A stretch of DNA of 64,000 nucleotides from an alpha proteobacterium HIMB59 (GTDB taxonomy: Bacteria > Pseudomonadota > Alphaproteobacteria > HIMB59). Position numbers and translations under genes: made by a program. Below, piece by piece: positions 25,013-52,610 of the stretch. How positions within the stretch are numbered: the stretch's first letter is position 1; each line of letters starts with the position of its first letter. The notes below the pieces were generated by a model. The model was not told the origin of the DNA. It saw only the letters and a list, made by a program, of their open reading frames with translations, and ran no database searches. The stretch lies in contig CP003801.1 of the NCBI GenBank assembly GCA_000299115.1, positions 434,001 to 498,000 of the forward strand, read 5' to 3'.

Positions 25013-26293
25013 TTGGATTATAAAGTAAAAGATATCTCTCAGCATGCTTTTGGGAGACAAGAAATAGAAATAGCCGAAACTGAAATGCCAGGATTAATGG
25101 CCATTCGTGAACAGTACGGTGACTCGAAACCTCTGGCTGGAGCAAATATTATGGGCTGTTTACATATGACTATTCAAACAGCTGTTCTGATTGAGACACT
25201 TGTTGCACTGGGCGCAAAGTGTCGATGGAGTTCATGTAATATCTATTCAACCCAAGATCATGCAGCAGCAGCTATTGCGCAAAGCGGCACTCCTGTGTTT
25301 GCATGGAAGGGGATGAGCGAAGAGGAGTTTTGGTGGTGCATTGATCAAACTATTGAAGCGGATGGTTGGGAGCCCAACATGATTTTAGATGATGGTGGTG
25401 ATTTAACTTTGCGTATGCACGAAAAATATCCTGAGTTATTAAAAAACATTAAAGGCTTATCTGAGGAGACCACAACAGGTGTTCTTCGATTGGAGCAGAT
25501 GGTCGAAAAAGGAACGCTGCAAGTTCCTGCCATCAATGTGAATGACTCCGTTACAAAAAGTAAGTTTGATAATCTGTATGGATGTAAAGAAAGTTTAGTA
25601 GATGGTATTCGTCGTGGCACAGATGTGATGATGGCAGGTAAAGTTGCTGTTGTGGCAGGCTTTGGCGATGTGGGTAAAGGAAGCGCTGCAAGTTTACGTG
25701 GAGCTGGTGCGCGCGTTCAAGTAACAGAGGTTGATCCTATTTGTGCATTGCAAGCGGCTATGGAGGGATATGAAGTAGTGACCATGGATGATGCTTGTAA
25801 ATATGCGGATATCTTTGTTACGGCTACAGGAAATAAAGATATTATTACTCAAGATCATATGAGAGAAATGAAAGACCGAGCCATTGTTTGTAATATCGGT
25901 CACTTCGATAATGAAATTCAAATTGACTCTCTTCAAAATTACAAATGGGAAGAAATCAAACCTCAAGTGGACCAAGTAACTTTTCCTGATGGCAAAAAAT
26001 TAATCATTCTCTCCAAAGGCCGTTTGGTGAACTTAGGAAATGCAACGGGTCATCCAAGTTTTGTGATGAGCGCTTCTTTCTCCAATCAGGTCTTAGCTCA
26101 AATGGAGCTATGGAAAAATCACCAAAACTATGAAAACAAAGTCTATGTTTTACCAAAAAAATTGGACGAAATGGTAGCTATGTTCCACCTCAAAAAAGTA
26201 GGAGCAAAATTAACCGAAATGTCTAAAGAGCAAAGCGATTATATTGGCGTTGAACAACAAGGACCATTTAAGAAAGAGACATATAGGTATTAA
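25013..26293 (+). CDS. ahcY: S-adenosylhomocysteine hydrolase
   Basis: Splits S-adenosylhomocysteine into adenosine and homocysteine, relieving product inhibition of methyltransferases. The 426-residue protein has [36 protein letters not shown], the NAD-binding [18 protein letters not shown] and the C-terminal [10 protein letters not shown]. The start is a TTG, strongly supported by AAGGAGG five bases upstream (25001-25007). It lacks the roughly 40-residue insertion after DDGGD found in most proteobacterial AhcY, so it is the short form. metK follows two bases later. Confidence 0.96.
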
Positions 26294-26295
26294 TC

Positions 26296-27468
26296 ATGAG
26301 AAAAGATTACATTTTTACTTCTGAGTCCGTTTCTGAAGGACACCCCGATAAAGTATCTGATCGTATTTCTGATATGGTCGTTGACCATTTCATTGCCAAA
26401 GATCCTTTTGCAAGGGTGGCTTGCGAAACGCTGACAACTACCAATAAGGTTGTGCTAGCTGGTGAAATTCGAGGACCAGTTCAAGAAGATAAAGATGAAA
26501 TCATCTCTAAAGTAAGAGACTGTATTAAAGATATTGGTTATGAGCAAGACGGCTTTCATTGGCAAAATGCTGATGTTCAATATTTATTGCATGGTCAATC
26601 AGCAGATATAGCTATGGGTGTTGACTCTTCAGCTGATAAAGATGAGGGTGCGGGAGATCAGGGAATTATGTTTGGCTATGCTTGCACAGAAACCCCTGAA
26701 TTAATGCCGGCACCAATTTATTATTCTCATAAAATTTTAGAACTAATGGCAAAAGGTCGTAAAGACGGCTCTCTCAAAGGGCTCGAGCCCGACTCCAAAA
26801 GTCAGGTAACTCTAAAATATGTTAATGGTCAACCAAGTGCTGTTACGTCAGTTGTTATTTCTACTCAACATGCAGAGGGCCTCTCTCCTGTAGCAGTGAA
26901 AGAAATAGTCACTCCTGTATTAAAAGAGTCAATTCCATCAAACTTACTCGATGGCCTCTCTGATAGCGAATACTATGTCAATCCGACAGGCAACTTTGTG
27001 ATTGGCGGACCTGATGGTGATACCGGTTTGACCGGAAGAAAAATTATTGTCGATACGTACGGTGGAGCTGCTCCTCATGGTGGCGGTGCATTCTCAGGAA
27101 AAGATCCAACTAAAGTTGATCGTTCTGCTGCTTATGCTGCTCGATACCTTGCTAAAAATATTGTAGCCGCAGGTCTCAGTACCCAGTGTACTATTCAATT
27201 ATCTTACGCTATTGGTGTGGCGAAGCCTTTGTCGATTTATGTCAATACACAAGGAACAAACACCATTGATGAAGCAAAAATTGAAGCAGCAATCCCGGAG
27301 ATTATGAATTTATCTCCAAAAGGAATACGTGAAAAACTTCAATTAAATAAGGCCATTTACGAGCAAACAGCCGCCTACGGACATTTCGGAAGAAAGCACG
27401 ACAGTGGGACAGGGGCATTTTCTTGGGAAGCCTTAGACTTGGTTTCTGACTTTAAGTCACTCGCATAA
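26296..27468 (+). CDS. metK: S-adenosylmethionine synthetase
   Basis: Makes S-adenosylmethionine from methionine and ATP. The 390-residue protein begins [13 protein letters not shown], has the two family signatures [12 protein letters not shown] and [19 protein letters not shown], and the expected ending with YGHFGR. Together with the upstream adenosine kinase and ahcY it forms an activated-methyl-cycle operon. The tsaE start TTG follows its TAA with no gap. Confidence 0.97.
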
Positions 27469-30492: not shown

Positions 30493-31779
30493 CTATGTTA
30501 GCTGTTCTAAAGGAAAAGAGCTGAGTTGTTCAAGCCCATTCGAGGTAACGTGATATTGATCTTCAAGTTTGACGCCTTCTTTTCCTCCTACCTCACCAAT
30601 ATAGGACTCCACGCAAATGGTCATGTTTTCCTCAAAGTGACTTGAGAAATCGGCGTTTGAAAAATCTTCATTAGGATAGGCAACAAAAGGCCATTCATCA
30701 CAAAGACCAATTCCATGAATGATACAGGGGTAATGATTGTCATAACAATTATTAGGCAATTTCCATGCCTTTTCAGCGAATTCTCTAAAGCTGGTACCAG
30801 CTTTGATAAGCTCTTGATTATGTTGAATGTGTTCGGTTGCAAGAGAGTAGAGTCTTCTTTGTTCATCATTGAATTTACCTCCCTCAACAAATGTTCGTGA
30901 TATGTCTGCGCAGTAACCATAAGGTCCTACCATATCCGTATCAAAGGCAACCAGATCTCCTGGTTCAATGACTCTATTACTACATTCTTGTAACCAAGGA
31001 TTGGTACGAGGACCAGACACTAATAATCTTGTCTCAAACCACTCACCTCCATTTTCGATATTGGTTTTGTGCATATAAGACCACAATTCTTCTTCTGTCA
31101 TTCCTGCTTGAAGCTTTTCTTTCATAAGCCACATCCCTTTTTCTGCAGTTTCAATTGATGCCTTCATGCATATTAATTCATCTTCTGATTTAATGGATCG
31201 AGCAGTTTCAACAAATTTTTGAGCATTTAATAATTCGACATTAAATTGTTTGAGTAGCGTTTGAATGCCAACAGGATCCGAGACATCTATAGCCAAACGA
31301 TTATTTTCAGGAGAGTGCTCTCTCATCAAATCTTGAACCATGCCTGCCCATTGTTTTGCGTTTTTATCGACAAAATTGTTTGCAGAAAAGAAATCCCAAC
31401 TAACGACACTTCGAATTTCATCGATAGTGCACAGATGCTCAGATAAGTGTTCGCTTTTAGGATAATCAAATAGGATCACTTTGCCCCCAGCGCTGATAAA
31501 AACGAAACGAACTAATTCATGCATCGTAAATAAACTCATGTTTCTGCTATCTGTTGCATAGCGAATATTGATGGGATCAAATAATATACAGGCACCAACA
31601 TCATTTTTTTGAAGCTGTTCAATTACTCTATTAAGACGATACATTCTAAGTCGATCAAAATTAATTTGATCCTCATATAAATAAGGATTGAACTGTTGTG
31701 TGCCAACATTTTGATTAATGACCTCAGAGAATTTAGGCCCAATTTTTCTACTGGCAAATTTACTTGTAAAATTTGTCAT
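30493..31779 (-). CDS. dddP: Dimethylsulfoniopropionate lyase DddP
   Basis: A member of the M24 peptidase fold that in DddP cleaves DMSP to dimethyl sulfide and acrylate. The 428-residue protein has the predicted metal ligands Asp280 and Asp282 (AFDTDMVG), Asp292 (ADISRTF), His355, Glu391 and Glu406. The motif HGIGLCDEWP (355-364) replaces the HGxGH of true Xaa-Pro peptidases and places the DddP catalytic aspartate at Asp361. Spacings match those reported for Ruegeria DddP with a constant offset of 15-16. FDPINIRYATDS is also DddP-like. It diverges from the BHMT-family pair. Confidence 0.88.
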   Translation of the reverse strand: MTNFTSKFASRKIGPKFSEVINQNVGTQQFNPYLYEDQINFDRLRMYRLNRVIEQLQKNDVGACILFDPINIRYATDSRNMSLFTMHELVRFVFISAGGKVILFDYPKSEHLSEHLCTIDEIRSVVSWDFFSANNFVDKNAKQWAGMVQDLMREHSPENNRLAIDVSDPVGIQTLLKQFNVELLNAQKFVETARSIKSEDELICMKASIETAEKGMWLMKEKLQAGMTEEELWSYMHKTNIENGGEWFETRLLVSGPRTNPWLQECSNRVIEPGDLVAFDTDMVGPYGYCADISRTFVEGGKFNDEQRRLYSLATEHIQHNQELIKAGTSFREFAEKAWKLPNNCYDNHYPCIIHGIGLCDEWPFVAYPNEDFSNADFSSHFEENMTICVESYIGEVGGKEGVKLEDQYHVTSNGLEQLSSFPLEQLT

Positions 31780-31915: not shown

Positions 31916-32953
31916 ATGAATTTAGTTGAAAGATTAAACCAAGGACCAGTCTTATGTGCTGAAGGATATCTCTTTGCTATGGAGCGTAGAGGCTACTTGC
32001 AAGCGGGTGCTTATGTACCGGAAGTCGTTTTAGAACATCCTGAAGTGGTTACTCAATTGCACCGAGAGTTTATCCGTGCGGGTAGTGATGTCGTCCAAGC
32101 TTTTACTTATTATGGTCATCGTGAAAAACTCCGTCTCATAGGCAAAGAAGAACTATTAGAACCCTTACAAAAAAATGCTTTGAAAATTGCCAAAGATGCA
32201 GCTGATGAATTCCCTGAATTGGATTTGATGATTGCGGGTAATGTTGCCAATACAAACATTTATAGCCCTACTGATAAACAATCTCATATCGATTGCCAAA
32301 AAATGTTTGCTGAACAAATCGCTTGGGCCAAAGAAGCAGGTGTAGATTTTGTTATTGCTGAAACTATCAACTGGACCGAAGAAGCTAAACTTGCACTAAA
32401 AGAAATTAAAGATGCTGGATTAATTGCTGTTGTCAATTTAGCAATTCCAAAAGGAGATAAAACAAGAGAGGGTCATTCCGCAGCAGAAGCATGCAAGATC
32501 TTAGAAGATCATGGTGCTGATGTCGTTGGACTGAATTGCTATCGTGGTCCGGATATGACAATGAAATTGTTACCGAGCATTAGAGAACAAGTTTCTTGTC
32601 ATGTGGCAGCACTTCCTGTTCCTTATCGAACAAATGAAGAATTCCCCACTCATATGTATATAGAAGATCCTAACTGTGGTTGTCTTGATGGAAATGTTTC
32701 TCATATAGCTTTAGATGGTCTGACTTGTAATCGATTTGAAATGGCTGAATTTACAAAACAATGTATGGATATAAATGTGAACTTCATTGGAATTTGCTGT
32801 GGTGCTGATCCTCATCATGTCAGAGAAATGGCAGTTGCTATGGGTAGAAAGCCTATAGCCTACAAATACTACCCTGATATGACAAAACACTTCGCACATG
32901 GAAACGAAGGCACTTTAAAAGATAATAACAAAGCAGAAGAATGGCTTAAATAA
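31916..32953 (+). CDS. Betaine-homocysteine methyltransferase family protein, copy 1
   Basis: A zinc-dependent homocysteine S-methyltransferase-family enzyme (345 residues) resembling BHMT: AEGYLFAMERRGYLQAGAY near the start, REFIRAGSDVVQAFTYYG, and the zinc ligands in VGLNCYRGP and FIGICCGADPHHVREMA. BHMT moves a methyl group from glycine betaine or DMSP-type donors to homocysteine. AGGGATTTTAAG precedes the ATG. A second copy follows 14 bases on. The donor is not readable; neighbouring dddP and oxidase genes suggest an onium compound. Confidence 0.88.
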   Translation: MNLVERLNQGPVLCAEGYLFAMERRGYLQAGAYVPEVVLEHPEVVTQLHREFIRAGSDVVQAFTYYGHREKLRLIGKEELLEPLQKNALKIAKDAADEFPELDLMIAGNVANTNIYSPTDKQSHIDCQKMFAEQIAWAKEAGVDFVIAETINWTEEAKLALKEIKDAGLIAVVNLAIPKGDKTREGHSAAEACKILEDHGADVVGLNCYRGPDMTMKLLPSIREQVSCHVAALPVPYRTNEEFPTHMYIEDPNCGCLDGNVSHIALDGLTCNRFEMAEFTKQCMDINVNFIGICCGADPHHVREMAVAMGRKPIAYKYYPDMTKHFAHGNEGTLKDNNKAEEWLK

Positions 32954-32967
32954 TAGGGAGAGCTCAT

Positions 32968-34041
32968 ATGAATTTAGTTGAAAGATTAAACCAAGGACCA
33001 GTTTTATGTGCTGAGGGATATCTCTTTGAGATGGAAAAACGTGGCTATTTACAAGCGGGAGCCTTTGTTCCCGAAGTCGTTTTAGAACATCCCGATGTCG
33101 TCACCCAGTTGCACCGAGAATTCATTCGTGCGGGCAGTGATGTGGTGCAAGCTTTCACTTATTATGGCCACCGTGAAAAACTCCGTTTAATTGGTAAAGA
33201 GGATTTATTAGAACCTCTTCAAAAAAATGCTCTGAAAATAGCTAAAGACGCTGCCAATGAATTTCCTGAATTGGATTTGATGATTGCTGGAGATGTAGCA
33301 AATACAAATATTTATGATCCCTCAGATAGTAAGTCTATTGTTGAAGTCGAAAGAATGTATGAGGAACAAATTGCTTGGGCTAAAGAAGCAGGTGTAGACT
33401 TTGTAATTGCAGAAACCATTCAGTGGACAGGGGAGGCGTTAATCGCACTCAAGAAAATTAAAGAAGCGGGATTAATAGCAGTTGTTAATTTAGCAATCCC
33501 TGCCAATGACCTAACCAGAGACAACCATACTCCCGAGGATGCTTGTAAAATTTTTGAAGACAATGGTGCGGAGGTAGTAGGACTAAATTGTTTTAGAGGA
33601 CCTGTACACACCATGAAACATTTAGTTAATATTCGAGAAAAAGTTTCATGTCATGTGGCAGGACTTCCTGTACCCGTGAGAACAACTGATGAATTTCCTG
33701 TTTGGTTTTCACTTCCTGATGAAGGATGTGATTGTCTTCCAGGGGGAAGGGCTTTTCCAACAGGTATTGATAATCTTTATTGTAACCGATATGAAATGGC
33801 TGAGTTTGCTAAAGACTGTTTAAGCAAAAATATAAATTTTATAGGTATTTGTTGTGGTGCAGCACCCCACCATGTTCGAGAAATGGCGGTCGCGCTAGGC
33901 AGAAAGCCCATATCTTATAAATATTACCCAGATATGAGTAAGCACTATCTTTTGGGAACCGATAAAACTTTAAAGAGCATCAACACGGATCATCAGGACA
34001 AATACAAAGCAGAAGAAAAGTGGTTGCCTAAAGGCAGTTAG
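32968..34041 (+). CDS. Betaine-homocysteine methyltransferase family protein, copy 2
   Basis: A 357-residue paralogue of the preceding gene with the same zinc ligands (VGLNCFRGP, FIGICCGAAPHHVREMA). The first 116 residues differ from copy 1 at seven positions only, and the first 35 bases are identical, whereas the region from residue ~117 on is clearly diverged, including the block between LPVPVRTTDEFP and NRYEMAEFA. This points to duplication followed by divergence of the second half, so the two may accept different methyl donors or sit in one complex. Confidence 0.88.
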   Translation: MNLVERLNQGPVLCAEGYLFEMEKRGYLQAGAFVPEVVLEHPDVVTQLHREFIRAGSDVVQAFTYYGHREKLRLIGKEDLLEPLQKNALKIAKDAANEFPELDLMIAGDVANTNIYDPSDSKSIVEVERMYEEQIAWAKEAGVDFVIAETIQWTGEALIALKKIKEAGLIAVVNLAIPANDLTRDNHTPEDACKIFEDNGAEVVGLNCFRGPVHTMKHLVNIREKVSCHVAGLPVPVRTTDEFPVWFSLPDEGCDCLPGGRAFPTGIDNLYCNRYEMAEFAKDCLSKNINFIGICCGAAPHHVREMAVALGRKPISYKYYPDMSKHYLLGTDKTLKSINTDHQDKYKAEEKWLPKGS

Positions 34042-34055
34042 TTTTTTTTTAAGAT

Positions 34056-35390
34056 TTGACGTCTTATAGCTCTCATCATAGTCCCGTTGAAACAGGCCAA
34101 AATGCTTGGTTATCAATTAATTCTTTTCCTTATAAATCAAAGTTTTTAGATAAAAACACCACTTGTGATTGGTTGATTTTGGGTGGGGGGTTTGCTGGAT
34201 TATCGGCTGCCTATCGACTTCAACAACTCCGCCCAAAAGATAAAGTCGTACTTATTGATGCCTTAAAAATAGGAGAGGGTTCTGCAGGCCAGAACAGTGG
34301 TTTTATGATTGACCTACCTCATAACATCAGCGCTTCGGGTAATTACACAGCTAGTCTGGAGAAAGATAAAAAAACAATTGAGCTTCATCGTCATGCAATG
34401 CAGTTCGCCAAAGATATTGCTGAGGAATGTGGAGTTTCAAAGGAGGACTTTTTACGCATAGGTAAAATCAATGGAGCAGCAACCCCATCCAGTATTTCGT
34501 GGAATGATCAATATCAAAAACAACTCCAAGATCTAAGTGAAGATCATCAAGTCTTTGATCGAAAAGAAATGAAAGAGTTAACAGGATCTGAGTTTTATGA
34601 AAGTGGTCTTTTCACACCAGGGACAGTTTTGTTTCACCCCTCTAATTATGTCAGAAACATTGCTACAAAATTAAGAGAGTATTGTGAAATTTTTGATAAC
34701 ACTCCAGCGACTAGTATTAACTCTCAAAATAATTCTTGGCTCGTTCAAACACCCAAAGCTTCAATAAGCTCAGCAAATATTATATTCGCAATTAACGGTC
34801 ATATCCAAAATTTTGGATTTTATAAAAATCGACTTATTCATTTATTTACATTTGCTGCTGTCACTAAAAAATTTTCTAGTGACCAATTAAGTGGTCAAGA
34901 TCAGTGGGGTATTACTCCTGCTAATCCTGTGGGAACTACTGTGAGAAAAATTAAAGATGGAGATGGTTTTCGTTTATTAGTTCGTAATCAATGGCAATGC
35001 CATCAATCAATGCAAATTAACCAATCTATTCTTGAGGCTAAAGAACAACGACTTCGCCAAAGTTTTGAAATACGATTTCCTATATTTAAACAATTACCTT
35101 TTGAATTTACTTGGGGTGGAAAAGTTTGTCTTTCCATGAATAATGTCCCTGCCTTTGGGGAATTAGATCGTGGTTTATACTCTGCATGCTGCTCCAATGG
35201 ATTAGGCTCAATTAATGGCACATTAGCGGGTAAGTTTATTATTGATAAGCTCTGTCAATCTAACGACCAGACCTATTTAAGCTTTGAAAATGCAGATAAA
35301 CCAACACTTTTGCCACCTAATTTTTTAACTCAAATTGGTGCTAATCTCAATATCAAGACCAAAGAGTGGAGGGCCGGCAGGGAGCTGTAA
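34056..35390 (+). CDS. FAD-dependent oxidoreductase (DAO family)
   Basis: A 444-residue flavoprotein of the D-amino acid oxidase/glycine oxidase fold, with the dinucleotide motif LILGGGFAGLSAAYRL, an acidic end of beta-2 (VVLIDALKIG) and SAGQNSGFMIDLP, close to gamma-glutamylputrescine oxidase-type enzymes. It should oxidise a secondary or primary amine to an imine. The start is a TTG 14 bases after the second BHMT gene; there is no later start before the FAD motif. Position between methyltransferases and a DapA-family/ALDH pair suggests it acts on a demethylated amino acid or amine. Confidence 0.82.
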   Translation: MTSYSSHHSPVETGQNAWLSINSFPYKSKFLDKNTTCDWLILGGGFAGLSAAYRLQQLRPKDKVVLIDALKIGEGSAGQNSGFMIDLPHNISASGNYTASLEKDKKTIELHRHAMQFAKDIAEECGVSKEDFLRIGKINGAATPSSISWNDQYQKQLQDLSEDHQVFDRKEMKELTGSEFYESGLFTPGTVLFHPSNYVRNIATKLREYCEIFDNTPATSINSQNNSWLVQTPKASISSANIIFAINGHIQNFGFYKNRLIHLFTFAAVTKKFSSDQLSGQDQWGITPANPVGTTVRKIKDGDGFRLLVRNQWQCHQSMQINQSILEAKEQRLRQSFEIRFPIFKQLPFEFTWGGKVCLSMNNVPAFGELDRGLYSACCSNGLGSINGTLAGKFIIDKLCQSNDQTYLSFENADKPTLLPPNFLTQIGANLNIKTKEWRAGREL

Positions 35391-35446
35391 CTCCATGATT
35401 GCAATTCATTCCAGATGAAATTACGTTTAATGGGAGGAGATTATCA

Positions 35447-36412
35447 GTGACAATTTTAAAAGGTATTTTTGGTGCGATGTGCACTCCATTTCAAGAAAGT
35501 GGAAAAGGTATCGATATTCCAAGATATCAATCTCACATTGATGACTTATTAGAAGCAGGTGTTCATGGTCTTGTTTTGTGTTCTGGAACTGGTGAGTATG
35601 CTTATTTGACCGATGAAGAAAAACAAACTTTAATTCAAGAGGGCGTCAAACATATCAATGGAAGATGCCCAACGATTGCTCAAACAACAGCACTGAGTAC
35701 TAATGAATGTATCGACAAGGCTAGGGCCGCAGAAGATGCTGGAGCTTCAGCTATCATGGTCATGCCTCCTTTTTTAGAACCTCCCTCGGAGCGAGGTGTC
35801 ATCTATCACTATGAAGCTATTGCGAAAGCTGTTCGTATTCCCATTGTCATGTATAATGTTCCTCAACAAGCAGCACCGTTAACTGAAGATACTTATCGTA
35901 AATTAATAGCAATTGAAAATTTAGATTATATTAAAGACAGTTCTGGGGATTTGCTCAACACCCAAAAGTTTATTCAAACAGGAGGTAGAGTTTTTTGTGG
36001 AATAGACTCTCTCGCACCGTTTGCCTTAATGAGCGGATGTACCGGTATGATCTGGGGTGCAGTTAACTTTATGCCCCATGAGTGTGTAAATCTTTTTAAT
36101 TTAATTGATGAAAAAAAATATCAGGAAGCCTTGGAGTTATGGAAATTAATGGAGCCTGTCTGTCTTTGGTTAGGGGGAAATCGGCATGATGTTGATTACC
36201 TCACAGGTATTAAAGCGGCTACAAATTTATCTGGTAGAAATATGGGGCCACCAAGAAAACCACTTCCTAGTGCTCCAGCCCCAGCACGTCACGACCTAAG
36301 GATTGCCATGTCTAAACTTCCAATCAACCATACTACTAATAATCGTCTCGTTTGGAGAGATTGGCAGGAGGAGAGAGATTGGCTAATTCAATCGACGATC
36401 AGAAAGAATTAA
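35447..36412 (+). CDS. DapA/NAL-superfamily lyase or deaminase with C-terminal extension
   Basis: A class I aldolase-fold protein. The Schiff-base lysine is in DYIKDSSGDL, the tyrosine in MYNVPQQ and the phosphate/carboxylate loop in SGTGEYAYLTDEEK. I choose GTG at 35447 because GGGAGGAG ends seven bases before it and the protein then begins TILKGIFGAMCTPF as in the family; a TTG at 35399 adds 16 residues. About 30-40 residues beyond the usual barrel end (from PAPARHDLRIAM on) have no counterpart known to me. Possible reactions include deamination of a pyrroline carboxylate or aldol cleavage. Confidence 0.83.
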   Translation: MTILKGIFGAMCTPFQESGKGIDIPRYQSHIDDLLEAGVHGLVLCSGTGEYAYLTDEEKQTLIQEGVKHINGRCPTIAQTTALSTNECIDKARAAEDAGASAIMVMPPFLEPPSERGVIYHYEAIAKAVRIPIVMYNVPQQAAPLTEDTYRKLIAIENLDYIKDSSGDLLNTQKFIQTGGRVFCGIDSLAPFALMSGCTGMIWGAVNFMPHECVNLFNLIDEKKYQEALELWKLMEPVCLWLGGNRHDVDYLTGIKAATNLSGRNMGPPRKPLPSAPAPARHDLRIAMSKLPINHTTNNRLVWRDWQEERDWLIQSTIRKN

Positions 36413-36424
36413 AGAGGAGTAAAA

Positions 36425-37891
36425 ATGTCTAAAACTATTGATTTTTCAACCCAATTAGTAATCGGAGGAAGACCTGTTCCAGGTGTGGAAGGAAAAACTT
36501 TTGATACCATAAACCCTGCAAATGGAAAAGTTTTAGCAAGTATTGCGGAAGCGAATAGCGAAGATGTGAATAACGCTGTGAGCGCTGCGCGCAAAGCCTT
36601 CGAGCAAGGACCATGGTCGAAGATGGCACCTGCAGAAAGAAAAAAAGTTTTATTGCGATTTGCTACTGTTGTCGAAGCTCATTCAGAAGAACTTGCCATG
36701 ATGGAGGCGATGGAAGCAGGCAAGCCTATAACTGATTGTTTAGAAATAGATCTTCCTGAAACAGTGAACACATTGCGTTGGCATGCTGAAGCCATAGATA
36801 AATTATATGATCAAATTTCACCAAGTGATCCTAGTGTGCTTTCGATGATTGTCCGAGAGCCGATGGGAGTGGTGGCAGCAATTCTTCCTTGGAATTTTCC
36901 AGCCATGATGGCTGCTTGGAAATTGGGTCCTATTCTTGCCACAGGAAACACTGTTGTCTTAAAACCTGCTGAACAAACTTCTTTATCAACTATTCGTATT
37001 GCAGAGTTAGCAGCTGAAGCAGGTATTCCTGATGGTGTGATTAATGTGGTTTGTGGTTTTGGAGAAACAGTGGGTAAAGTATTAGGTGAGCATCCAGATG
37101 TTGACTGTGTTGCCTTTACAGGCTCAACGGAAACTGGAAGAATGTTTCTTCGATATTCTGCCGACTCCAATTTAAAAAGAGTGCTTTTAGAGTGTGGAGG
37201 AAAAAATCCATTTATTGTTATGGAAGATGCAGAAGATTTAGACACTGCAGCTGACCATGCGACGAATTCAATCTTTTGGAATATGGGAGAGAATTGCTCA
37301 TCCAACTCTCGTCTTTTAGTTCATCAGTCAATCAAAGATCAGCTTTTAGAATTAATTGTAGAAAAATCCAAAGAGTGGGTAGTCGGCGATCCCTTAAACC
37401 CAGCCACCAGAATTGGCCCAATGATCGAACAGGCACATCTAGATAAAGTGGTAGGCTTTATTGAACAAGCTCAAAAAGATGAAAACAAATTAGTGATTGG
37501 CGGGAAACGAACCCAAGAAGATAGCGGGGGATACTTTGTCGAACCAACCATTTTTGATGATGTAAAGCCTGATAATACTCTCTTTTCTGAGGAAGTCTTT
37601 GGGCCTGTTTTGGGTATTACGACTTTCAAAGATCCAGAAGAAGCAATCACTTTAGCTAACAATAATAAGTATGGCTTAGCGGCCTCCGTCTTCACAAGCT
37701 CAAATAAAACAGCCCATGTTGCAGCAAGAAAAATCAAAGCGGGGACAGTTGCCGTTAATTGTTACGGGGAAGGTGATGCGACTACTCCATTTGGGGGTTA
37801 TAAGCTCTCTGGTTTTGGTGGAAGAGATAAATCACTAGCAGCCCATGATCAGTATTGTGAATTAAAGACTATTTGGATTGATCTAAAGTAA
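36425..37891 (+). CDS. NAD(P)-dependent aldehyde dehydrogenase
   Basis: A 488-residue class 1/2-type ALDH, closest in look to PuuC/betaine-aldehyde and gamma-aminobutyraldehyde dehydrogenases. It has ILPWNFPAMMAAWKLGPIL, the cofactor loop FTGSTETGR, the general base Glu in LLECGGKNP and the nucleophile Cys in NMGENCSSNSRL, plus the EVFGPVLG motif. AAAGAGGAG precedes the ATG. It closes the BHMT-oxidase-lyase operon, where it would oxidise a semialdehyde or aldehyde product to an acid. Confidence 0.93.
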   Translation: MSKTIDFSTQLVIGGRPVPGVEGKTFDTINPANGKVLASIAEANSEDVNNAVSAARKAFEQGPWSKMAPAERKKVLLRFATVVEAHSEELAMMEAMEAGKPITDCLEIDLPETVNTLRWHAEAIDKLYDQISPSDPSVLSMIVREPMGVVAAILPWNFPAMMAAWKLGPILATGNTVVLKPAEQTSLSTIRIAELAAEAGIPDGVINVVCGFGETVGKVLGEHPDVDCVAFTGSTETGRMFLRYSADSNLKRVLLECGGKNPFIVMEDAEDLDTAADHATNSIFWNMGENCSSNSRLLVHQSIKDQLLELIVEKSKEWVVGDPLNPATRIGPMIEQAHLDKVVGFIEQAQKDENKLVIGGKRTQEDSGGYFVEPTIFDDVKPDNTLFSEEVFGPVLGITTFKDPEEAITLANNNKYGLAASVFTSSNKTAHVAARKIKAGTVAVNCYGEGDATTPFGGYKLSGFGGRDKSLAAHDQYCELKTIWIDLK

Positions 37892-40044: not shown

Positions 40045-41004
40045 ATGATCAAACTAATTAAAACTATGTTAGTAGCAGTATTCATGTTTACTACTGTTAC
40101 TGTCTCTTCTTCTTATGCTAAATCAATTAGAATCGCACTTGCAGAGCCACCATCCGATGAGCTTGCGGCATTCTTTTTAGCATTAGATAGAGCAAAAGCT
40201 AATGGACTAGACTATGAATGGACAGCTTTTTCTGATGAAGAATTAGCTATTCAATCTGTTTTAAGCGGACAGATGGATATCGGTTTTGGTACTCCCTATT
40301 CTGCGATGCAAAAGTCTAAAGCTCCAATTAGAATTATCTTTCAATTATCAAAGTTAAAATTCTTCCCTGTAACAACTAAAGATTACAGTAAGTTAGAAGA
40401 TCTTAATGGCGAGCCAATTCTATTACACTCACGTGGTGGCGGAACTGACTCAATTGCTAATGTGATTGAAGATAAATTAGGAATTAAATTTGGTGAGAGA
40501 TCTTATATTTCAGGATCTGCAAACCGTGTGGCTGCTCTTTTAGCAAACCAGGCGCAAGCAACTATTATTGACTTATCAAATAAAAATAAAATTATGGCAT
40601 CTCATGGCGATCAGTTTAACACTTTGCCTATGTTTGATGTTGATGCTAGTGATGAGGCGTTATTTGCTAATGTTGATTGGATCAAAGCTAACGAAGACTC
40701 AGTAAATATTTTTGTTAGCGCACTATTAAGTGTTTACAGAGATATGGCGAATGACCCAACTATCATTAGAAGAGAAACTAATCCTGATGGCCCAATTGGT
40801 GAACTTCCTGAAGAAGTGCTAGCTGAGCTTGACGGCTTCTATACAGACGCAGTTGCTGGTGGTCTTTATGATGTTAATGGTGGTGGTGAAAAAGCTGCTT
40901 TAGCTGATATGGAATGGTATTCCAAAGCAGGTCAGCTTGAAGGTGACTTATCATCTCTAAAGATCGAGGACTTCTGGTATTTAGAGCCATTAAATAGTAA
41001 CTAA
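40045..41004 (+). CDS. ABC importer substrate-binding protein (NitT/TauT type)
   Basis: A 319-residue periplasmic protein with an N-terminal signal peptide (cleavage probably after SSSYA). The mature part begins KSIRIALAEPPSDELAAF and has the two-lobe pattern of SsuA/TauA/ThiY-type binding proteins, with LSGQMDIGFGTPYSAM. ACTTAGGAGG is a strong ribosome site in front of the ATG. The ligand is not recognisable; the downstream acylpyruvase-like and malonyl-CoA-synthetase-like enzymes suggest an organic acid. Confidence 0.85.
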   Translation: MIKLIKTMLVAVFMFTTVTVSSSYAKSIRIALAEPPSDELAAFFLALDRAKANGLDYEWTAFSDEELAIQSVLSGQMDIGFGTPYSAMQKSKAPIRIIFQLSKLKFFPVTTKDYSKLEDLNGEPILLHSRGGGTDSIANVIEDKLGIKFGERSYISGSANRVAALLANQAQATIIDLSNKNKIMASHGDQFNTLPMFDVDASDEALFANVDWIKANEDSVNIFVSALLSVYRDMANDPTIIRRETNPDGPIGELPEEVLAELDGFYTDAVAGGLYDVNGGGEKAALADMEWYSKAGQLEGDLSSLKIEDFWYLEPLNSN

Positions 41005-41018
41005 TATATATTTAAATT

Positions 41019-41046
41019 TATTGGGGTGATTGTGTTCACCCCAATA
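41019..41046 (+). terminator. Hairpin after the substrate-binding protein gene
   Basis: An 11-bp perfect stem built on ATTGGGGTGA and TCACCCCAAT with a 6-base loop, between the SBP gene and the first permease. There is no T-run after it, so it more likely acts as a partial terminator or an mRNA 3'-end stabiliser that keeps binding-protein transcript in excess over the membrane parts. Confidence 0.7.
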
Positions 41047-41062
41047 TATGTAAAATAACTCA

Positions 41063-41821
41063 ATGATATCAAGGTCACTAACACTCAAACTCTTATCTGC
41101 TCTGGTTATATTTGGGGCATGGGAAATCTCATCTAGGGCTGGAATTAACTATGCTTTTCCAACCTTTTTTGAGTCCATGTTGGCTTTATGGAACTTGACA
41201 ATAAGTGGTCAAATTTTTGTCGCTTATGCTGAAACCCTAAAGCCACTCGTAGTAGGAGTCTTGATTTCCACTTTTATTGGAGTGGGCATTGGTGTTTGGG
41301 TTGGTTTAAGTGAAAAATTTGATTGGTTAGTATCACCTATTTTTATCATTATGCAATCTGCGCCCCTTGCAGCTTTAATCCCACTTGTAATTATGGCATA
41401 TGGAATTGGAATAACTTCCAAAACTTTTGTTGTATGTATCATGGCTATGCCTGTGATCGTATTAAACACCAGTGGAGCTGTAAAAAATACCCCAACTTCT
41501 ATGATTGAAATGGCAAGATCTTTTTTGAGCACAGAACGAGAAGTAATTTTTAAAATCATTATACCATCTGCTTCCCCTGTGATCTTTGCTGGCTTACGAC
41601 TTGGAGTTTCAGCTGGTTTCATTGGAGCTATTTTAGCAGAATTGAAAATTACACCTACCGGTGTGGGAGATATAATTTCTTATAGTCGAATGACGGCAGA
41701 CTATCCAAGTATGTACGCAGCTATTTTTTCAATTATCGTTTTAGCTGTTTTATTTTTGAATGTATTAGAGCGAATAGAAAAAGTTTTATTTGCTGGAAAT
41801 GATCGTGGTTATGTATCTTAA
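41063..41821 (+). CDS. ABC importer permease 1 (NitT/TauT type)
   Basis: A 252-residue inner-membrane protein with about six hydrophobic segments. The cytoplasmic EAA-type loop reads MIEMARSFLSTEREVIFKI before IIPSASPVIFAGLRLG, the contact with the ATPase. It belongs to the SsuC/TauC permease family. A second, different permease gene of the same family follows the ATPase gene, which is unusual for this family. Confidence 0.87.
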   Translation: MISRSLTLKLLSALVIFGAWEISSRAGINYAFPTFFESMLALWNLTISGQIFVAYAETLKPLVVGVLISTFIGVGIGVWVGLSEKFDWLVSPIFIIMQSAPLAALIPLVIMAYGIGITSKTFVVCIMAMPVIVLNTSGAVKNTPTSMIEMARSFLSTEREVIFKIIIPSASPVIFAGLRLGVSAGFIGAILAELKITPTGVGDIISYSRMTADYPSMYAAIFSIIVLAVLFLNVLERIEKVLFAGNDRGYVS

Positions 41822-41838
41822 AATTAGAGGAGTAAGTG

Positions 41839-42603
41839 ATGAGTGATGATGTGAACGCAGTTAGCGTTAAAGGAATTTATAAAAATTATGGAGATGTTGA
41901 AGCATTGAGAGACATGTCCTTAGATTTCCCAAAAGGTCAACTGACATCTTTGTTGGGTCCTTCTGGTTGTGGTAAGACAACTCTACTAAAAATTATTGCA
42001 GGCCTCTTAGCCCCTAATCAAGGTGAGGTTTATGTGAATGGACAAATTGTAACCGAGCCTGGACCTGATCGAGCATTTGTCTTTCAAGATTTTGCCTTAA
42101 TGCCCTGGGCCTCCGTTCTAAGAAACGTTGCTTTTGGTTTGGAACTTAGAAAAGTTCCTAAATCAGAACGAGAAGATATTGCCCGAAAGTATATTAAAGA
42201 TGTTGGTTTGGACGGATTTGAAAATAGTTTCCCTCATGAATTATCAGGAGGTATGCGCCAAAGAGTAGGTTTAGCCAGAGCGCTTTCAGTTGATTCTCCT
42301 GTATTATTAATGGATGAGCCATTTTCTGCTGTAGATGAACAAACCCGAAGAAAGTTCCAAGAAGATTTACTGCAGTTAGTCAAAGAAGAGAGCAAAACCT
42401 TTATTTTTGTGACTCACTCTATCGAAGAGGCAGTGTATGTCTCTGATCAAGTTGCTATTTTATTACCTCGACCAAGTCGAGTCTCTGAAATTATCAAGCC
42501 ATCGAGTTTTAAAAATAAAGACGTTGATAGCATTCGAAAAGACAGCGAGTACCTCGATACTGTTGAGAAAATATGGAAGTCGTTAAGGTCTTACGTAGAG
42601 TAA
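41839..42603 (+). CDS. ABC importer ATPase (NitT/TauT type)
   Basis: A 254-residue nucleotide-binding subunit with Walker A LLGPSGCGKTTLL, Q-loop VFQDFALMPW, signature LSGGMRQRVGLARAL, Walker B VLLMDEPFSAVD and the H-loop His in FVTHSIEEA, all intact. I start at the ATG 41839 rather than the GTG three bases earlier; GAGGAG is upstream. It lies between the two permease genes and presumably drives both as a heterodimer. Confidence 0.92.
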   Translation: MSDDVNAVSVKGIYKNYGDVEALRDMSLDFPKGQLTSLLGPSGCGKTTLLKIIAGLLAPNQGEVYVNGQIVTEPGPDRAFVFQDFALMPWASVLRNVAFGLELRKVPKSEREDIARKYIKDVGLDGFENSFPHELSGGMRQRVGLARALSVDSPVLLMDEPFSAVDEQTRRKFQEDLLQLVKEESKTFIFVTHSIEEAVYVSDQVAILLPRPSRVSEIIKPSSFKNKDVDSIRKDSEYLDTVEKIWKSLRSYVE

Positions 42604-42604
42604 A

Positions 42605-43360
42605 ATGAGAATTTTTGGCATTAAACTCCCTAATATGACATCGCTAATACTATGGGGTTTGTTATGGGAAATTTTAGGAAGAATGGAAGTATCCTTCTTT
42701 CTTCCTCCCTTATCATCTATCTTTACTACCCTTGCGGACATTTATGACTCCAAAGCCTTTATTCGAGCTTTGAGTGAAACTGCCGTTGCTTTCTTTGGGG
42801 GACTTTTCTATGCCCTAGTAATTGGTATCCCCGTTGGTATCTTTATGGGAAAGAATAGATTTATTGATGAACTTCTTTTGCCATGGGTAAATATGTTTAT
42901 GAGCGCACCATTAACAGCGCTTGTTCCTGTTCTGATGGTTTTGTTTGGTTTTGGTCTAAAATCAATCATCATAGTCACAACATTATTTGCAATTTGGATT
43001 ATCATCTTAAACACGAGAGCGGGTGTAAAACAAATTAATCGCTCTTTAGTGGATATGGCAAATTCATTTGGTGCAAAACCAATCGATGCATTTGTAAAGA
43101 TTTATTTTTGGGCAGCCTTACCTGAAATAATTGGTGGGATCAGAATTGGTTTCATCAGAGCTGTAAAAGGTGTCATCATCGGTCAACTTTTGATTTCCAT
43201 TGTTGGCTTCGGATCGTTGTTTGAATTATATTCATCGAGATTTTTGATGTCACACTTCTGGGCAATAATACTTGTTTTGTTTGCACTGGCTTTTACTATC
43301 TCAGAGCTATTAGCTATGTTGGCAAAACGATTTGATTACTACGCCTCTAAAAGAGGTTAA
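42605..43360 (+). CDS. ABC importer permease 2 (NitT/TauT type)
   Basis: A 251-residue membrane protein homologous to, but clearly different from, the first permease. The EAA-type loop is LVDMANSFGAKPIDAFVKI followed by LPEIIGGIRIGFIRA. It begins one base after the ATPase stop. With the first permease it would give a heterodimeric channel, whereas SsuBC and TauBC systems use one permease gene. Confidence 0.87.
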   Translation: MRIFGIKLPNMTSLILWGLLWEILGRMEVSFFLPPLSSIFTTLADIYDSKAFIRALSETAVAFFGGLFYALVIGIPVGIFMGKNRFIDELLLPWVNMFMSAPLTALVPVLMVLFGFGLKSIIIVTTLFAIWIIILNTRAGVKQINRSLVDMANSFGAKPIDAFVKIYFWAALPEIIGGIRIGFIRAVKGVIIGQLLISIVGFGSLFELYSSRFLMSHFWAIILVLFALAFTISELLAMLAKRFDYYASKRG

Positions 43361-43377
43361 TTGAAGGAGAATAAGAA

Positions 43378-44064
43378 ATGACAAATTTAGTAATTCCTGA
43401 ACCAAAAAAAACTCTCATACCTGTCCATGGTAGTGATGAATTTTTTCCAGTCAGAAGAGTTTATTGTATAGGTAGAAATTATGCAGCCCATACGATTGAG
43501 ATGGGATTTGATCCAGATAAAGAACCACCATTCTTTTTCCAAAAAAACACTGATAATATTGATACTTCTGGTCAATTTCCTTACCCACCTGAGTCCAGCG
43601 ATGTGCACTATGAGTTAGAATTAGTAGTCGCATTAAACAAAGGCGGATCGAATATTAAAGAAGAAGATGCTTATGATCATATTTACGGTTTTGGCATTGG
43701 TCTTGATATGACGCGCAGAGACCTTCAAGGCGTTTGTAAAAAAATGGGAAGACCTTGGGAGATTGGAAAAGCTTTTGAACGCTCTGCTCCAATGGGCAGT
43801 CTGACTCCTATGAGTGAAGTCGGTAATATGGAAAGCGGTAGCATCCAATTAAAGGTTAACGATGAAGTTCGCCAAGATGGTAATTTGGATATGATGTTAT
43901 GGAAGATACCTGAACAGATTGCAATTTTATCAAAGTTTTATGATATCACGGCAGGTGACTTGATTATGACTGGCACACCTGCTGGCGTTGGCCCAATCGT
44001 TAAAGGTGATAAATTAGTAGGTACGATTGATGGCCTACAAACATTAAACGTAGAGGTAGTTTAA
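43378..44064 (+). CDS. Fumarylacetoacetate hydrolase family protein
   Basis: A 228-residue FAH-superfamily enzyme of the short acylpyruvase/fumarylpyruvate hydrolase type. The start region VYCIGRNYAAHTIEMG, metal-binding Glu pair in HYELELVVAL, the Asp in GIGLDMTRRDLQ, and TGTPAGVGPI are family features. Such enzymes split C-C bonds of acylpyruvates or decarboxylate oxaloacetate. AAGGAG precedes the ATG. Being in the importer operon, it probably acts on a breakdown product of the imported compound. Confidence 0.88.
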   Translation: MTNLVIPEPKKTLIPVHGSDEFFPVRRVYCIGRNYAAHTIEMGFDPDKEPPFFFQKNTDNIDTSGQFPYPPESSDVHYELELVVALNKGGSNIKEEDAYDHIYGFGIGLDMTRRDLQGVCKKMGRPWEIGKAFERSAPMGSLTPMSEVGNMESGSIQLKVNDEVRQDGNLDMMLWKIPEQIAILSKFYDITAGDLIMTGTPAGVGPIVKGDKLVGTIDGLQTLNVEVV

Positions 44065-44076
44065 AAATTCAAGTGT

Positions 44077-45579
44077 ATGGGGCATTCCCTCCTTTACAAT
44101 AACTTTATAAAGCCCCACATTGATAACGAAGATCCGTTTCTAATATTTAGGGACGGGTCTTCGATTTCTTATCAAGATTTTTTTTCTTTATCTAAAAAGA
44201 TCTCACGATTTTTTGTAGAAAATCATATTTCCAAAGGGGACCGGGTATTATTTCAATTAGAGAAGAGTATCTATGGACTAGCTGTTTACACATCTTGTAT
44301 TATGACAGGTGCAATCTATGTCCCCCTGAATGATCAGTATACCTTGGAAGAGACGAAATATTTTATACATGACTCAGAACCTAAATTTATTTTTTGTAAT
44401 AGCAATCGTGCTAAAGAAATTCAAAAATTAAAATTAAAGGAAGATACTTCAATTTATGAGATAGACCCTATCAATGGTTTTTTAAAATTTAATATTGATG
44501 AATATAAAGAATTAGAAGATATCCAAACTGTTAATTCAGATGAAATAATTTCTTTTTTATATACTTCGGGGACAACTGGAAAATCAAAAGCCGTTGCTCT
44601 TTCCCATAATAATCTTTATTCCAATGCTTCCTCTCTTAAAGAGTACTGGCATATTCAAAAGAGTGATCGTCTTATTCATATGCTACCAATTTTCCATACT
44701 CACGGTCTATTTGTTGCTATAAACACAGCTTTTTTAAGTGGTTTATCTTTGTATTTCTTTGAAAAGTTTAGTCTTAGTGACTTAGTGGAGGTATTACCAA
44801 AGTCAACATTACTGATGGGAGTGCCTACATACTACAAAAGAATGAACGCCTCATCACTCATCAATAAAGATTTAACCAATAAAATGAGATTATTTATTTC
44901 TGGAAGCGCTCCTTTATCTTCTATTGATCAACAAGATTTTTATCAAAAGACAGGCCATACCATATTAGAGCGTTATGGAATGACGGAAACGAATATGAAT
45001 ACATCTAATCCTTATGAGGGGGAAAGAAAACCAGGCAGTGTGGGGTTGCCATTGCCCGATGTACAAATTCGAATTACTGAAGGAAACTCCAAAATACCAC
45101 TACCAGCAAAAGAAGTTGGAATGATTCAGGTCAAAGGCCCTAATGTATTCAGTTCTTATTGGAAAAATGAACATGCAAATCAGGAGTCATTTACAGATGA
45201 TGGTTTTTTTATAACAGGCGATCTGGGATATATTGATCAAGATGGTTATGTACATATATCAGGACGAGAAAAAGATTTAATCATCTCTGGTGGATTTAAT
45301 ATTTATCCCAAAGAAATTGAAGATTTAATTAATAACCATCCAGATGTCAAAGAGTCTGCAGTAGTAGGGGTAAAAGATGATGATTTGGGAGAGGTACCTG
45401 TAGCTGTAATTGTTGTAGATATGGAGTTTAAATATCAAGTTTTAACAGATCTTGAAAATGTATTTCAACAAAACTTAGCTAAATTTAAAGTACCAAGAGA
45501 AATCAAAATTCTTGATGAATTGCCAAGAAATGCAATGGGTAAAATTCAAAAGAATTTGATTTTAAAGTTAATTAATTAG
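44077..45579 (+). CDS. AMP-forming acyl-CoA ligase, malonyl-CoA synthetase-like
   Basis: A 500-residue ANL-superfamily ligase. P-loop YTSGTTGKSKAVALSH, then MLPIFHTHGLFVAINTA and ERYGMTETNMNTSNPY, which match the MatB (malonyl-CoA synthetase) subgroup well, the hinge motif GYVHISGREKDLIISGG and the catalytic lysine in PRNAMGKIQK. It would activate malonate or a related short dicarboxylate to its CoA ester. It is the last gene of the importer operon, 12 bases after the FAH gene. Confidence 0.85.
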   Translation: MGHSLLYNNFIKPHIDNEDPFLIFRDGSSISYQDFFSLSKKISRFFVENHISKGDRVLFQLEKSIYGLAVYTSCIMTGAIYVPLNDQYTLEETKYFIHDSEPKFIFCNSNRAKEIQKLKLKEDTSIYEIDPINGFLKFNIDEYKELEDIQTVNSDEIISFLYTSGTTGKSKAVALSHNNLYSNASSLKEYWHIQKSDRLIHMLPIFHTHGLFVAINTAFLSGLSLYFFEKFSLSDLVEVLPKSTLLMGVPTYYKRMNASSLINKDLTNKMRLFISGSAPLSSIDQQDFYQKTGHTILERYGMTETNMNTSNPYEGERKPGSVGLPLPDVQIRITEGNSKIPLPAKEVGMIQVKGPNVFSSYWKNEHANQESFTDDGFFITGDLGYIDQDGYVHISGREKDLIISGGFNIYPKEIEDLINNHPDVKESAVVGVKDDDLGEVPVAVIVVDMEFKYQVLTDLENVFQQNLAKFKVPREIKILDELPRNAMGKIQKNLILKLIN

Positions 45580-50262: not shown

Positions 50263-51456
50263 ATGGAAAAGGTAGACCTACAGCGTTCATCTCATGAAGA
50301 TCTGTTTATTCCAAAGCGCCATCAATTAGAGGCTTGTACCAATCCTATTCATCAAGCTCATGGAGTTCCCAATGAATATTATATTCGACCGGAGTGCTTT
50401 GAGATGGAAGGTGAACATCTATTTAACAAAGGTTGGTTTGCTGTTGGATTTGTCAAAGACCTACCTCAGCCTGGCTCTGCTATACCTGTAAATTATTTTA
50501 ATAATCCCTTATTGATTGTTAAAAGTAAGCAGGACGAAAAAATCAGAGTCTTTCAAAATGTTTGTCGACATCGTGGGATGATTTTAATTGAAGAACCCAC
50601 AGTCTTAAAAGGAGCTATCCGATGTCCTTATCATTCATGGTGCTATAAACAAACAGGTGAAGTTGTTGCCACTCCTCATATTGGCGGCCCAGGTTATAAT
50701 TACCACTCAGGTATTGATAAAAGTGAACTCTCCTTATTAGAAGTTCGATCTCATATTTGGCGTGATGTGATATTTGTCAACCCTGATGGAATGGCACCTC
50801 CTTTTGAAGAAGTTCACCGACCCTTGTTAGACCGTTGGTCTGTTTTTGAGCAACCCATGTATTCTGATATGAGCGACTCTGCTTTTAAATTAGAAGTAAA
50901 TGGAAACTGGAAATTAGCTGTCGAGAATTATTTAGAGTCTTATCATTTACCTTGGGTTCACCCTGGATTGAACAGTTATTCTAAATTAGAAGACCATGAA
51001 AATATTGTTAAGTATGGTCATTACTCTGGTCAAATTAGCTACAAATATATTCCTCAGTACACAACAGGAAAGCAATTTGATGACTTTAAAAACTTAGGTC
51101 CCGAATGGGATACAAAAGGAGAGTATATAGTTTTATTTCCGAACTTGGTTTTAGGAGTTCAAAAAGACCATATTTTCAACCTTATTATTGAGCCTTTAGC
51201 CCCAAATAAAATTCGTGAACACATTGAATTATATTACTCAGATCCAGCCATGTTGGCAGACGAGTACAAAGAAACTCGTCAAGAAAATGCTAAATTGTGG
51301 AAGACCGTATTCGAAGAGGATATTTTTGTTGTCGAGGGAATGCAAAAAGGTAGATATGCCAAGGGTTTTGATGGGGGTCGTTTTTCTCCCGTCATGGATG
51401 AACCCACTCATGTATTCCACGATTGGTACGCTAGAAAAATATTAAATAGCTTTTAA
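50263..51456 (+). CDS. Rieske non-heme iron oxygenase, alpha subunit
   Basis: A 397-residue oxygenase. The [2Fe-2S] ligands are Cys101/His103 (CRHRG) and Cys121/His124 (CPYHSW); mononuclear iron ligands are His228 and His233 in YLESYHLPWVHP with a carboxylate in the EEDIFVVEGMQKG stretch. The bridging residue three positions before His228 is Glu225, where most ring hydroxylases have Asp; Glu is known from the quaternary-ammonium oxygenases such as carnitine oxygenase CntA. That suggests demethylation or cleavage of a betaine-like substrate rather than an aromatic. The reductase may be the FNR gene downstream. Confidence 0.88.
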   Translation: MEKVDLQRSSHEDLFIPKRHQLEACTNPIHQAHGVPNEYYIRPECFEMEGEHLFNKGWFAVGFVKDLPQPGSAIPVNYFNNPLLIVKSKQDEKIRVFQNVCRHRGMILIEEPTVLKGAIRCPYHSWCYKQTGEVVATPHIGGPGYNYHSGIDKSELSLLEVRSHIWRDVIFVNPDGMAPPFEEVHRPLLDRWSVFEQPMYSDMSDSAFKLEVNGNWKLAVENYLESYHLPWVHPGLNSYSKLEDHENIVKYGHYSGQISYKYIPQYTTGKQFDDFKNLGPEWDTKGEYIVLFPNLVLGVQKDHIFNLIIEPLAPNKIREHIELYYSDPAMLADEYKETRQENAKLWKTVFEEDIFVVEGMQKGRYAKGFDGGRFSPVMDEPTHVFHDWYARKILNSF

Positions 51457-51489
51457 ATCTCTCTTATCTCCTAGATAATCTAATTTACT

Positions 51490-52575
51490 ATGGGTGCTAT
51501 TCCTAAAGTAATGTCTGGTGTTTATTTAACAGGACACGGAGGACTAGAAAAATTAATCTACAAAGAGGATATCCCTGTACCCGCGCCTCAGTCGGGTGAA
51601 GTTCTGATTGAAGTAAAGGGAGCAGGCGTTAATAATACCGATATTAATACTCGACTGGGTTGGTATTCAAAAAAAGTAACCAGCGATACTAATGCAGGGG
51701 GTACAGAAGGCTTATCAGAAGTCGATGATAGCGACGCTTCATGGAGTGGGGTTCCTTTGCAGTTTCCACGAATTCAAGGAGGAGATATTTGTGGAATTAT
51801 TGTACAAGTCGGAGAGGGAGTAGAGCAGGATAGAATAGGAACACGAACTATTGTTCGCGCCATGCAAAATATTCCAACTAAAGACAATCCTTTGGCAATG
51901 CAAACAATGGGCTCTGAAGTTGATGGAGGCTTTGCTCAATACTGTGTGGCAAAAGCAAAAGAGTCCTTTCCAATTAATTGTGATTGGAGCGATATTGAAT
52001 TGGCGTCCATTCCCATTTCTTATTCAACGGCAGAGGGGATGCTCTGTCGAGCAGATATTCAAAAAGAGACTATTTTAATCACCGGTGCTTCAGGAGGAGT
52101 AGGCTCTGCTGCAATTCAATTAGCGAAAGTTCGTGGCGCTAAAATTATCGCTCAGTGCGCACCTGATAAGGCAAGCACTTTAAAAGAATTGGGAGCTGAT
52201 CAAACAGTGAATAGAAATGACGATCTGGTGAATGTACTAGGTGCAAATTCTGTCGATGCTGTTGTTGATTTGGTTGGCGGATCTAGTTGGCCACAACTTT
52301 TAGATATTTTAAGACCTGGCGGCAAGTATGTTACTTCTGGCGCTATTGCAGGTCCGATTGTCGATTTAGATTTAAGAAGTCTTTATTTAAAAGATCTGAC
52401 TTTATTTGGCTCGACCGTCAATGAACCCTATGTTTTTGAAAATGTAATCCATTGTATTGAAGAGGGACAAATTAAACCTTTAGTCGCCCAATCATTTCCT
52501 CTAAAAGAGATTCATAAGGCTCAAACAGTGTTTATGGAGAAGAAATTCGTTGGAAAACTGGTGTTAATCCCCTAA
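51490..52575 (+). CDS. Zinc-independent MDR-family oxidoreductase (quinone reductase-like)
   Basis: A 361-residue medium-chain dehydrogenase/reductase. The NADPH site is ILITGASGGVGSAAIQLAKVRGA; GVNNTDINTR replaces the catalytic-zinc cysteine region, so it is of the quinone oxidoreductase/enoyl reductase branch. An unusual insertion of about 25 residues follows NTRLGWYSKK. It starts 33 bases after the oxygenase stop; that gap contains TTATCT-CCT-AGATAA (51464-51478), a small inverted repeat. The substrate is unknown. Confidence 0.82.
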   Translation: MGAIPKVMSGVYLTGHGGLEKLIYKEDIPVPAPQSGEVLIEVKGAGVNNTDINTRLGWYSKKVTSDTNAGGTEGLSEVDDSDASWSGVPLQFPRIQGGDICGIIVQVGEGVEQDRIGTRTIVRAMQNIPTKDNPLAMQTMGSEVDGGFAQYCVAKAKESFPINCDWSDIELASIPISYSTAEGMLCRADIQKETILITGASGGVGSAAIQLAKVRGAKIIAQCAPDKASTLKELGADQTVNRNDDLVNVLGANSVDAVVDLVGGSSWPQLLDILRPGGKYVTSGAIAGPIVDLDLRSLYLKDLTLFGSTVNEPYVFENVIHCIEEGQIKPLVAQSFPLKEIHKAQTVFMEKKFVGKLVLIP

Positions 52576-52610
52576 ATTCTGTGAAGTTAAAAAAGACTGT
52601 ATAATAAGGC

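Follow-up and report, generated by a model that had tools for sequence, protein, structure and literature searches.

A five-gene operon of the alphaproteobacterium HIMB59 as a putative variant of hydroxyproline-betaine catabolism

Gene content and conservation of the operon

The window analysed here, a stretch of 64,000 nucleotides from the alphaproteobacterium HIMB59 (assembly GCA_000299115.1, contig CP003801.1, positions 434,001 to 498,000), carries an operon of five co-directional open reading frames (ORFs) on the + strand that may encode the catabolism of a hydroxyproline-type betaine. From 5' to 3', it comprises two BHMT-type homocysteine S-methyltransferases, MT1 (31916–32953, 345 aa) and MT2 (32968–34041, 357 aa; both PF02574), a DAO-family FAD oxidase (34056–35390, 444 aa, PF01266) proposed to act on (N-methyl-)hydroxyproline, a DHDPS-superfamily (DapA-type) lyase of a clade hereafter called B (longest ORF 35399–36412, PF00701), and an aldehyde dehydrogenase (ALDH; 36425–37891, 488 aa, PF00171) proposed to oxidize alpha-ketoglutarate semialdehyde. 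All five proteins scored far over the Pfam cut-offs, confirming the gene set seen in the first-pass annotation of this DNA, and the genes are separated by gaps of 14, 14, 56 and 12 bp. Most starts are preceded by purine-rich stretches resembling ribosome-binding sites; for the lyase, GTG 35447 (after GGAGGAG; 321 aa) is the more likely start, since its relatives start there and residues 1–17 of the long form are disordered in the structure model. The terminator previously claimed to close the operon was not recovered: a scan gave no terminator-like site 3' of 37891, with promoter and terminator matches not above chance, and the next gene is convergent, ending 12 bp past that position. An Rfam scan of the whole window returned nothing over gathering, leaving a SAM riboswitch unsupported.

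The five-gene set is not a chance arrangement, because its order is conserved in at least 12 relatives and 14 of the 52 genomes of the genus carry the lyase. The species-genome scan with the lyase returned 80 contigs, the last four of them remote. The methyltransferase–oxidase–lyase order was kept in 12 single-cell or metagenome-assembled (MAG) relatives besides G161, usually with one methyltransferase rather than two; in most of these 12 the ALDH comes next, followed by a GbcA-like Rieske oxygenase, L045 ending before the latter. Those relatives that bear names are marine single-cell genomes.

Two BHMT-type methyltransferases of probably different origin

The operon holds two METHYLTRANSFERASES (MT1 and MT2), both BHMT-type. 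MT2 shares 90% identity with the single operon methyltransferase of the relatives and, by this comparison, is the operon-specific one. MT1 matches human BHMT at 164 bits and is 91% identical to the copy adjoining a dimethylglycine-dehydrogenase (DMGDH)-like gene in G259 and G161 (tree support 98/98). It is probably the DMGDH-linked general BHMT of the genus, relocated into the operon; it appears to have moved because the old site in HIMB59 keeps etfB, DMGDH and the kinase, with no BHMT within the stretch read.

The zinc cysteines of BHMT are kept (C208, C294/C295 and the next Cys; C208, C295 and C296 in MT2). Trp44 and Tyr160 of BHMT are pocket residues. Relative to human BHMT and SAR11-type Bhmt (PMC12478193), the fold family, the zinc cysteines and the Glu159 equivalent are conserved in the HIMB59 enzymes, whereas Trp44 and Tyr160 are replaced and the enzyme is an operon-bound paralog. 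The host genome (1,410,127 bases, single contig, 99.87% complete) has neither MttB nor any B12-binding domain over cut-off, which makes a homocysteine-linked enzyme in the place of MttB coherent; MT2 would thus plausibly stand in for MttB. SAR11 bacteria have likewise been proposed to demethylate glycine betaine by Bhmt alone (PMC12478193). BHMT-type proteins are nearly absent from plasmids.

Phylogeny of the oxidase, lyase and aldehyde dehydrogenase

The last three enzymes had been likened to those of hydroxyproline degradation; the lyase, however, is of a clade separate from the canonical hydroxyproline deaminase. The oxidase and its clade are sister (support 89/87) to the oxidases of A. vitis, Mesorhizobium WSM3860 and Pseudaminobacter, all encoded near a 4-hydroxyproline epimerase (4HypE). 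A search of solved structures with the oxidase gave weak dimethylglycine dehydrogenase matches only, and its structure model (mean pLDDT 62) was left unused. It is 51–54% identical to its syntenic counterpart in the relatives, against ~90% for its operon neighbours, as if it had been replaced or were evolving fast. The ALDH groups with the ALDHs of clusters linked to 4HypE or to HpbD, the hydroxyproline betaine 2-epimerase.

The lyase belongs to clade B (27 rows of the tree, support 100/100), apart from 4HypE-linked HypD, clade A, DHDPS, NanA and YagE, the placement of long rows being unsure. Its Schiff-base Lys179 and Tyr152 are kept (long-ORF numbering), while the positions of DHDPS Arg138 and Thr44 are occupied by Q157 and G63, the former being Gln, Asn, Ala, Ser or Thr across the clade. 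Solved-structure matches were mostly DHDPS, and the fold search likewise returned DHDPS with Z ~38 for many entries, a non-discriminating result in which the absence of other families is meaningless. Two loci (L086 and L087) carry a clade-B lyase and oxidase beside a clade-A DapA–ALDH–oxidase cluster with 4-hydroxyproline epimerase, and the two lyase clades are thus probably not simple replacements of each other.

Genomic context pointing to a prolyl betaine

The first-pass annotation had guessed a prolyl or hydroxyproline betaine as substrate, and genome context favours this guess. In three close relatives a mandelate-racemase-type enzyme is encoded within the operon, between the ALDH and the Rieske oxygenase in L049 (AG-404-P08) and L065 (AG-900-J20) and between the lyase and the Rieske oxygenase in L055 (AG-313-A14). 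It scored 515 bits to the structures 4e8g/4izg/4j1o and 492 to 2pmq/4h2h, the Paracoccus and Pelagibaca HpbD enzymes, the next family reaching 208; the same protein in Paracoccus plasmids (57% identity) is annotated 'hpbD: 4-hydroxyproline betaine 2-epimerase'. Four further loci (L066, L074, L098 and L163) have HpbD in the vicinity of a clade-B lyase. In the first of these (L066:8788-10981), the HpbD and lyase matches merge in a 583-aa ORF, which may be a fusion or reflect a frameshift in the assembly. Two other candidates were discarded: an MR_MLE protein in L114 falls in another branch, and an HpbD-sized window protein (53954–55057) is unrelated to HpbD.

More widely, other relatives of the lyase and of the oxidase have HpbD, MttB, ProX, HpbA or 4-hydroxyproline epimerase as neighbours. 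One or more quaternary-amine markers (MttB, ProX, HpbA, DMGDH-like, HpbD or BHMT) were found at 58 of 76 clade-B lyase loci versus none of 18 proline-racemase/4HypE (free-hydroxyproline) loci, the HIMB59-clade loci entering this count through their BHMT and Rieske genes and the independent figure being 45 of 63. Boseongicola/Silicimonas-type MAGs combine clade-B DapA with MttB, an ALDH, an oxidase and two SDRs. In rhizobia, Burkholderia, Pseudomonas and gammaproteobacteria it is mostly accompanied by the oxidase and has ProX/ProV, MttB, DMGDH-like, HpbA or OYE-type proteins as neighbours. The S. meliloti pSymB region, taken as the hyp reference, was without annotation and gave no DapA match.

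Related clusters place the same gene classes in comparable settings. On Cereibacter sphaeroides 2.4.1 pB and Leisingera plasmids, MttB–HpbD lies opposite oxidase–ALDH–DapA–GntR; two SDRs follow HpbD in Cereibacter and NJS204 (MttB–HpbD–SDR–SDR), and ProV/ProW/ProX are also present in Cereibacter. The Agrobacterium vitis order is GntR–DapA–ALDH–oxidase–ProX–ProV–ProW–ProW–4-hydroxyproline epimerase. The oxidases (40–45% identity) and ALDHs (53–55%) of these three clusters are related to those of the window, and the DapA proteins (28–30%) fall in another clade. The Cereibacter/Leisingera type thus shares the gene classes of the HIMB59 operon but uses an MttB demethylase, often two SDRs and a clade-A DapA. 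Compared with the canonical free-hydroxyproline pathway (4HypE, HypD, HypO, KGSADH), the superfamilies are the same but the clades differ, 4HypE is absent here, and the canonical loci lack quaternary-amine neighbours. As outlined in PMC4113996 (citing Zhao 2013 and Kumar 2014, on Pelagibaca and Paracoccus), the route from hydroxyproline or its betaine, the latter being demethylated, runs through an epimerase and then DAO-, DHDPS- and ALDH-superfamily steps. These three superfamilies stand together in the window's operon too, and HpbD and a Rieske oxygenase in those of close relatives; in contrast, the proposed demethylase of the window is BHMT-type, HpbD, HpbA and 4HypE were not found in the window, and the lyase is of a separate clade.

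Proposed pathway and alternative explanations

We consider it reasonably probable that the operon serves to break down a betaine of the hydroxyproline type (N,N-dimethyl-4-hydroxyproline, and possibly other prolyl betaines) to alpha-ketoglutarate. The genes, their families, catalytic residues and phylogeny and their conserved context are observed; from these we infer the substrate, the products and the order of steps, including demethylation before oxidation. Uptake of the betaine would fall to ProX/OpuAC-type transporters whose genes lie outside the operon, three OpuAC proteins being present in the host genome. MT2, aided or replaced by a Rieske oxygenase, would then remove one N-methyl group, MT2 passing it to homocysteine to yield methionine. 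The FAD oxidase would convert (N-methyl-)hydroxyproline to a pyrroline or iminium 2-carboxylate, which the clade-B lyase may open and deaminate through its lysine Schiff base, giving alpha-ketoglutarate semialdehyde and ammonia or methylamine, and the ALDH would oxidize the semialdehyde to alpha-ketoglutarate. Glycine betaine probably remains the compound that MT1 demethylates.

The host genome encodes a gamma-glutamylmethylamide-synthetase-type (GMAS) enzyme, which makes methylamine release possible. A rather unlikely version of the pathway builds on such a release: oxidase and lyase would act directly on N-methylated hydroxyproline via an N-methyl iminium acid, the lyase setting free methylamine in place of ammonia, with a single demethylation by the B12-free MT2. 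This direct route would account both for the separateness of the module from the free-hydroxyproline enzymes and for its siting with quaternary-amine genes.

Several observations weigh against the assignment to hydroxyproline betaine. The lyase is outside the canonical HypD clade and differs in active-site residues; neither HpbD nor proline racemase has a match in the host genome, and HpbA gave none in the window, to which its search was confined. HpbD occurs in just 3 of 13 clade loci, and the ALDH is missing in three clade relatives (L052, L053 and L055). BHMT substrates are quaternary onium compounds, not tertiary amines, which leaves the second demethylation without a clear enzyme.

The strongest of the rival explanations, although we judge it improbable, is that the operon handles some other quaternary amine or onium compound, for instance another amino-acid betaine (homoserine betaine being one) or a sulfonium amino acid hydroxylated at position 4. 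Such a substrate would be demethylated, turned into a 2-oxo acid and cleaved by retro-aldol reaction to pyruvate and an aldehyde, the latter then being oxidized. Aldolases are common in the DHDPS superfamily, clade B has an active-site signature of its own and is separate from the known deaminases, neighbours of the MttB, ProX and DMGDH-like kinds suit any betaine, and the best match of the window's Rieske oxygenase is carnitine monooxygenase; yet it is HpbD and 4-hydroxyproline epimerase that recur as neighbours, and no context for another betaine was found. The idea of a homarine operon was dropped, a literature search having found no description of such genes.

Unhydroxylated proline betaine is a clearly weaker candidate, in which HpbD would be a proline-betaine racemase and the oxidase would form pyrroline-carboxylate. 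HpbD-type enzymes are indeed described both as hydroxyproline betaine 2-epimerase and as proline betaine racemase, in work cited in PMC5144071, but proline offers no role for DapA and ALDH and the Paracoccus hpb cluster (HpbA, ProX, HpbD, Rieske, P5C-reductase-like) has neither adjoining it. Slightly less probable still is glycine betaine catabolism with unrelated passenger genes: MT1 is orthologous to the DMGDH-linked BHMT and glycine betaine use is stated for one AEGEAN-169 clade (PMC11366302), but the conserved operon copy is MT2, the DMGDH/sarcosine-type GcvT-fusion demethylases are located elsewhere, and DapA and ALDH would be idle on this substrate. Polyamine use of the PuuB/PuuC kind, which had been named as a possible refutation, is rejected as highly improbable on tree positions: PuuC is the best NCBIfam match of the ALDH (564 bits, below the 850 cut-off), but it falls outside the ALDH group (48% identity), PuuB (~24%) lies far outside the oxidase tree, and the methyltransferases would have no role.

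Neighbouring genes and a probably wider functional unit

The functional unit probably extends beyond these five genes, because a trio of + strand genes at 50263–53645 is contiguous with the operon in relatives, although 12 kb separate the two in the window. It comprises a quaternary-amine-type Rieske oxygenase (50263–51456; 77% identical to the one directly 3' of the ALDH in G161), a Zn-dependent alcohol dehydrogenase/quinone oxidoreductase family protein (51490–52575; fam40), which follows the Rieske gene in L049, L055 and L065, and a thioredoxin-reductase-like flavoprotein (52611–53645; 81% to a protein of the same run in G161) as a possible Rieske reductase. The best PDB matches of the Rieske protein were carnitine monooxygenase (105 bits) and the demethylase-type Rieske proteins 3vca/4qup; it shares 24% identity with the Rieske protein of the Paracoccus hpb cluster and is a candidate N-demethylase. 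The protein at 61773–62864 resembles the PF07995 glucose/sorbosone dehydrogenase encoded after the Rieske reductase gene of relatives (L043:15278-16348, L049:17506-18576), and lies 8 kb off in the window, behind an ABC transporter.

On the other side, the operon is flanked by a divergent gene (30493–31779, − strand) for a DddP-like M24/creatinase-fold protein (DddP model 377.6 bits, cut-off 600), a neighbour shared by 12 of 14 clade loci, the window counted. Further upstream, S-adenosylhomocysteinase and methionine adenosyltransferase (25013–27468), likewise present in several relatives, fit a homocysteine/methionine turnover. Downstream, a single run at 40045–45579 encodes an NMT1/THI5-like ABC transporter, a fumarylacetoacetate-hydrolase-family protein and a malonyl-CoA-synthase-type ligase (612.8 bits, cut-off 558).

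Implications

The interpretation given by the first-pass annotation is thus supported, with corrections, on sequence and context: the operon would be a putative variant of hydroxyproline-betaine catabolism with a BHMT-type demethylase and a clade-B lyase. We know of no BHMT-type demethylase for prolyl betaine; if our reading is true, MT2 would be a candidate for this function and a one-enzyme, B12-free replacement of the MttB system of related clusters. It would also provide a function for a DHDPS-superfamily clade of at least 76 loci in several phyla. Hydroxyproline betaine is a compound of plankton holobionts and a plankton osmolyte, and open-ocean plankton contains both it and proline betaine (PMC11965087). 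On this reading, an abundant and streamlined ocean lineage of the AEGEAN-169/HIMB59 type would be able to obtain carbon, nitrogen and methyl groups from hydroxyproline betaine.

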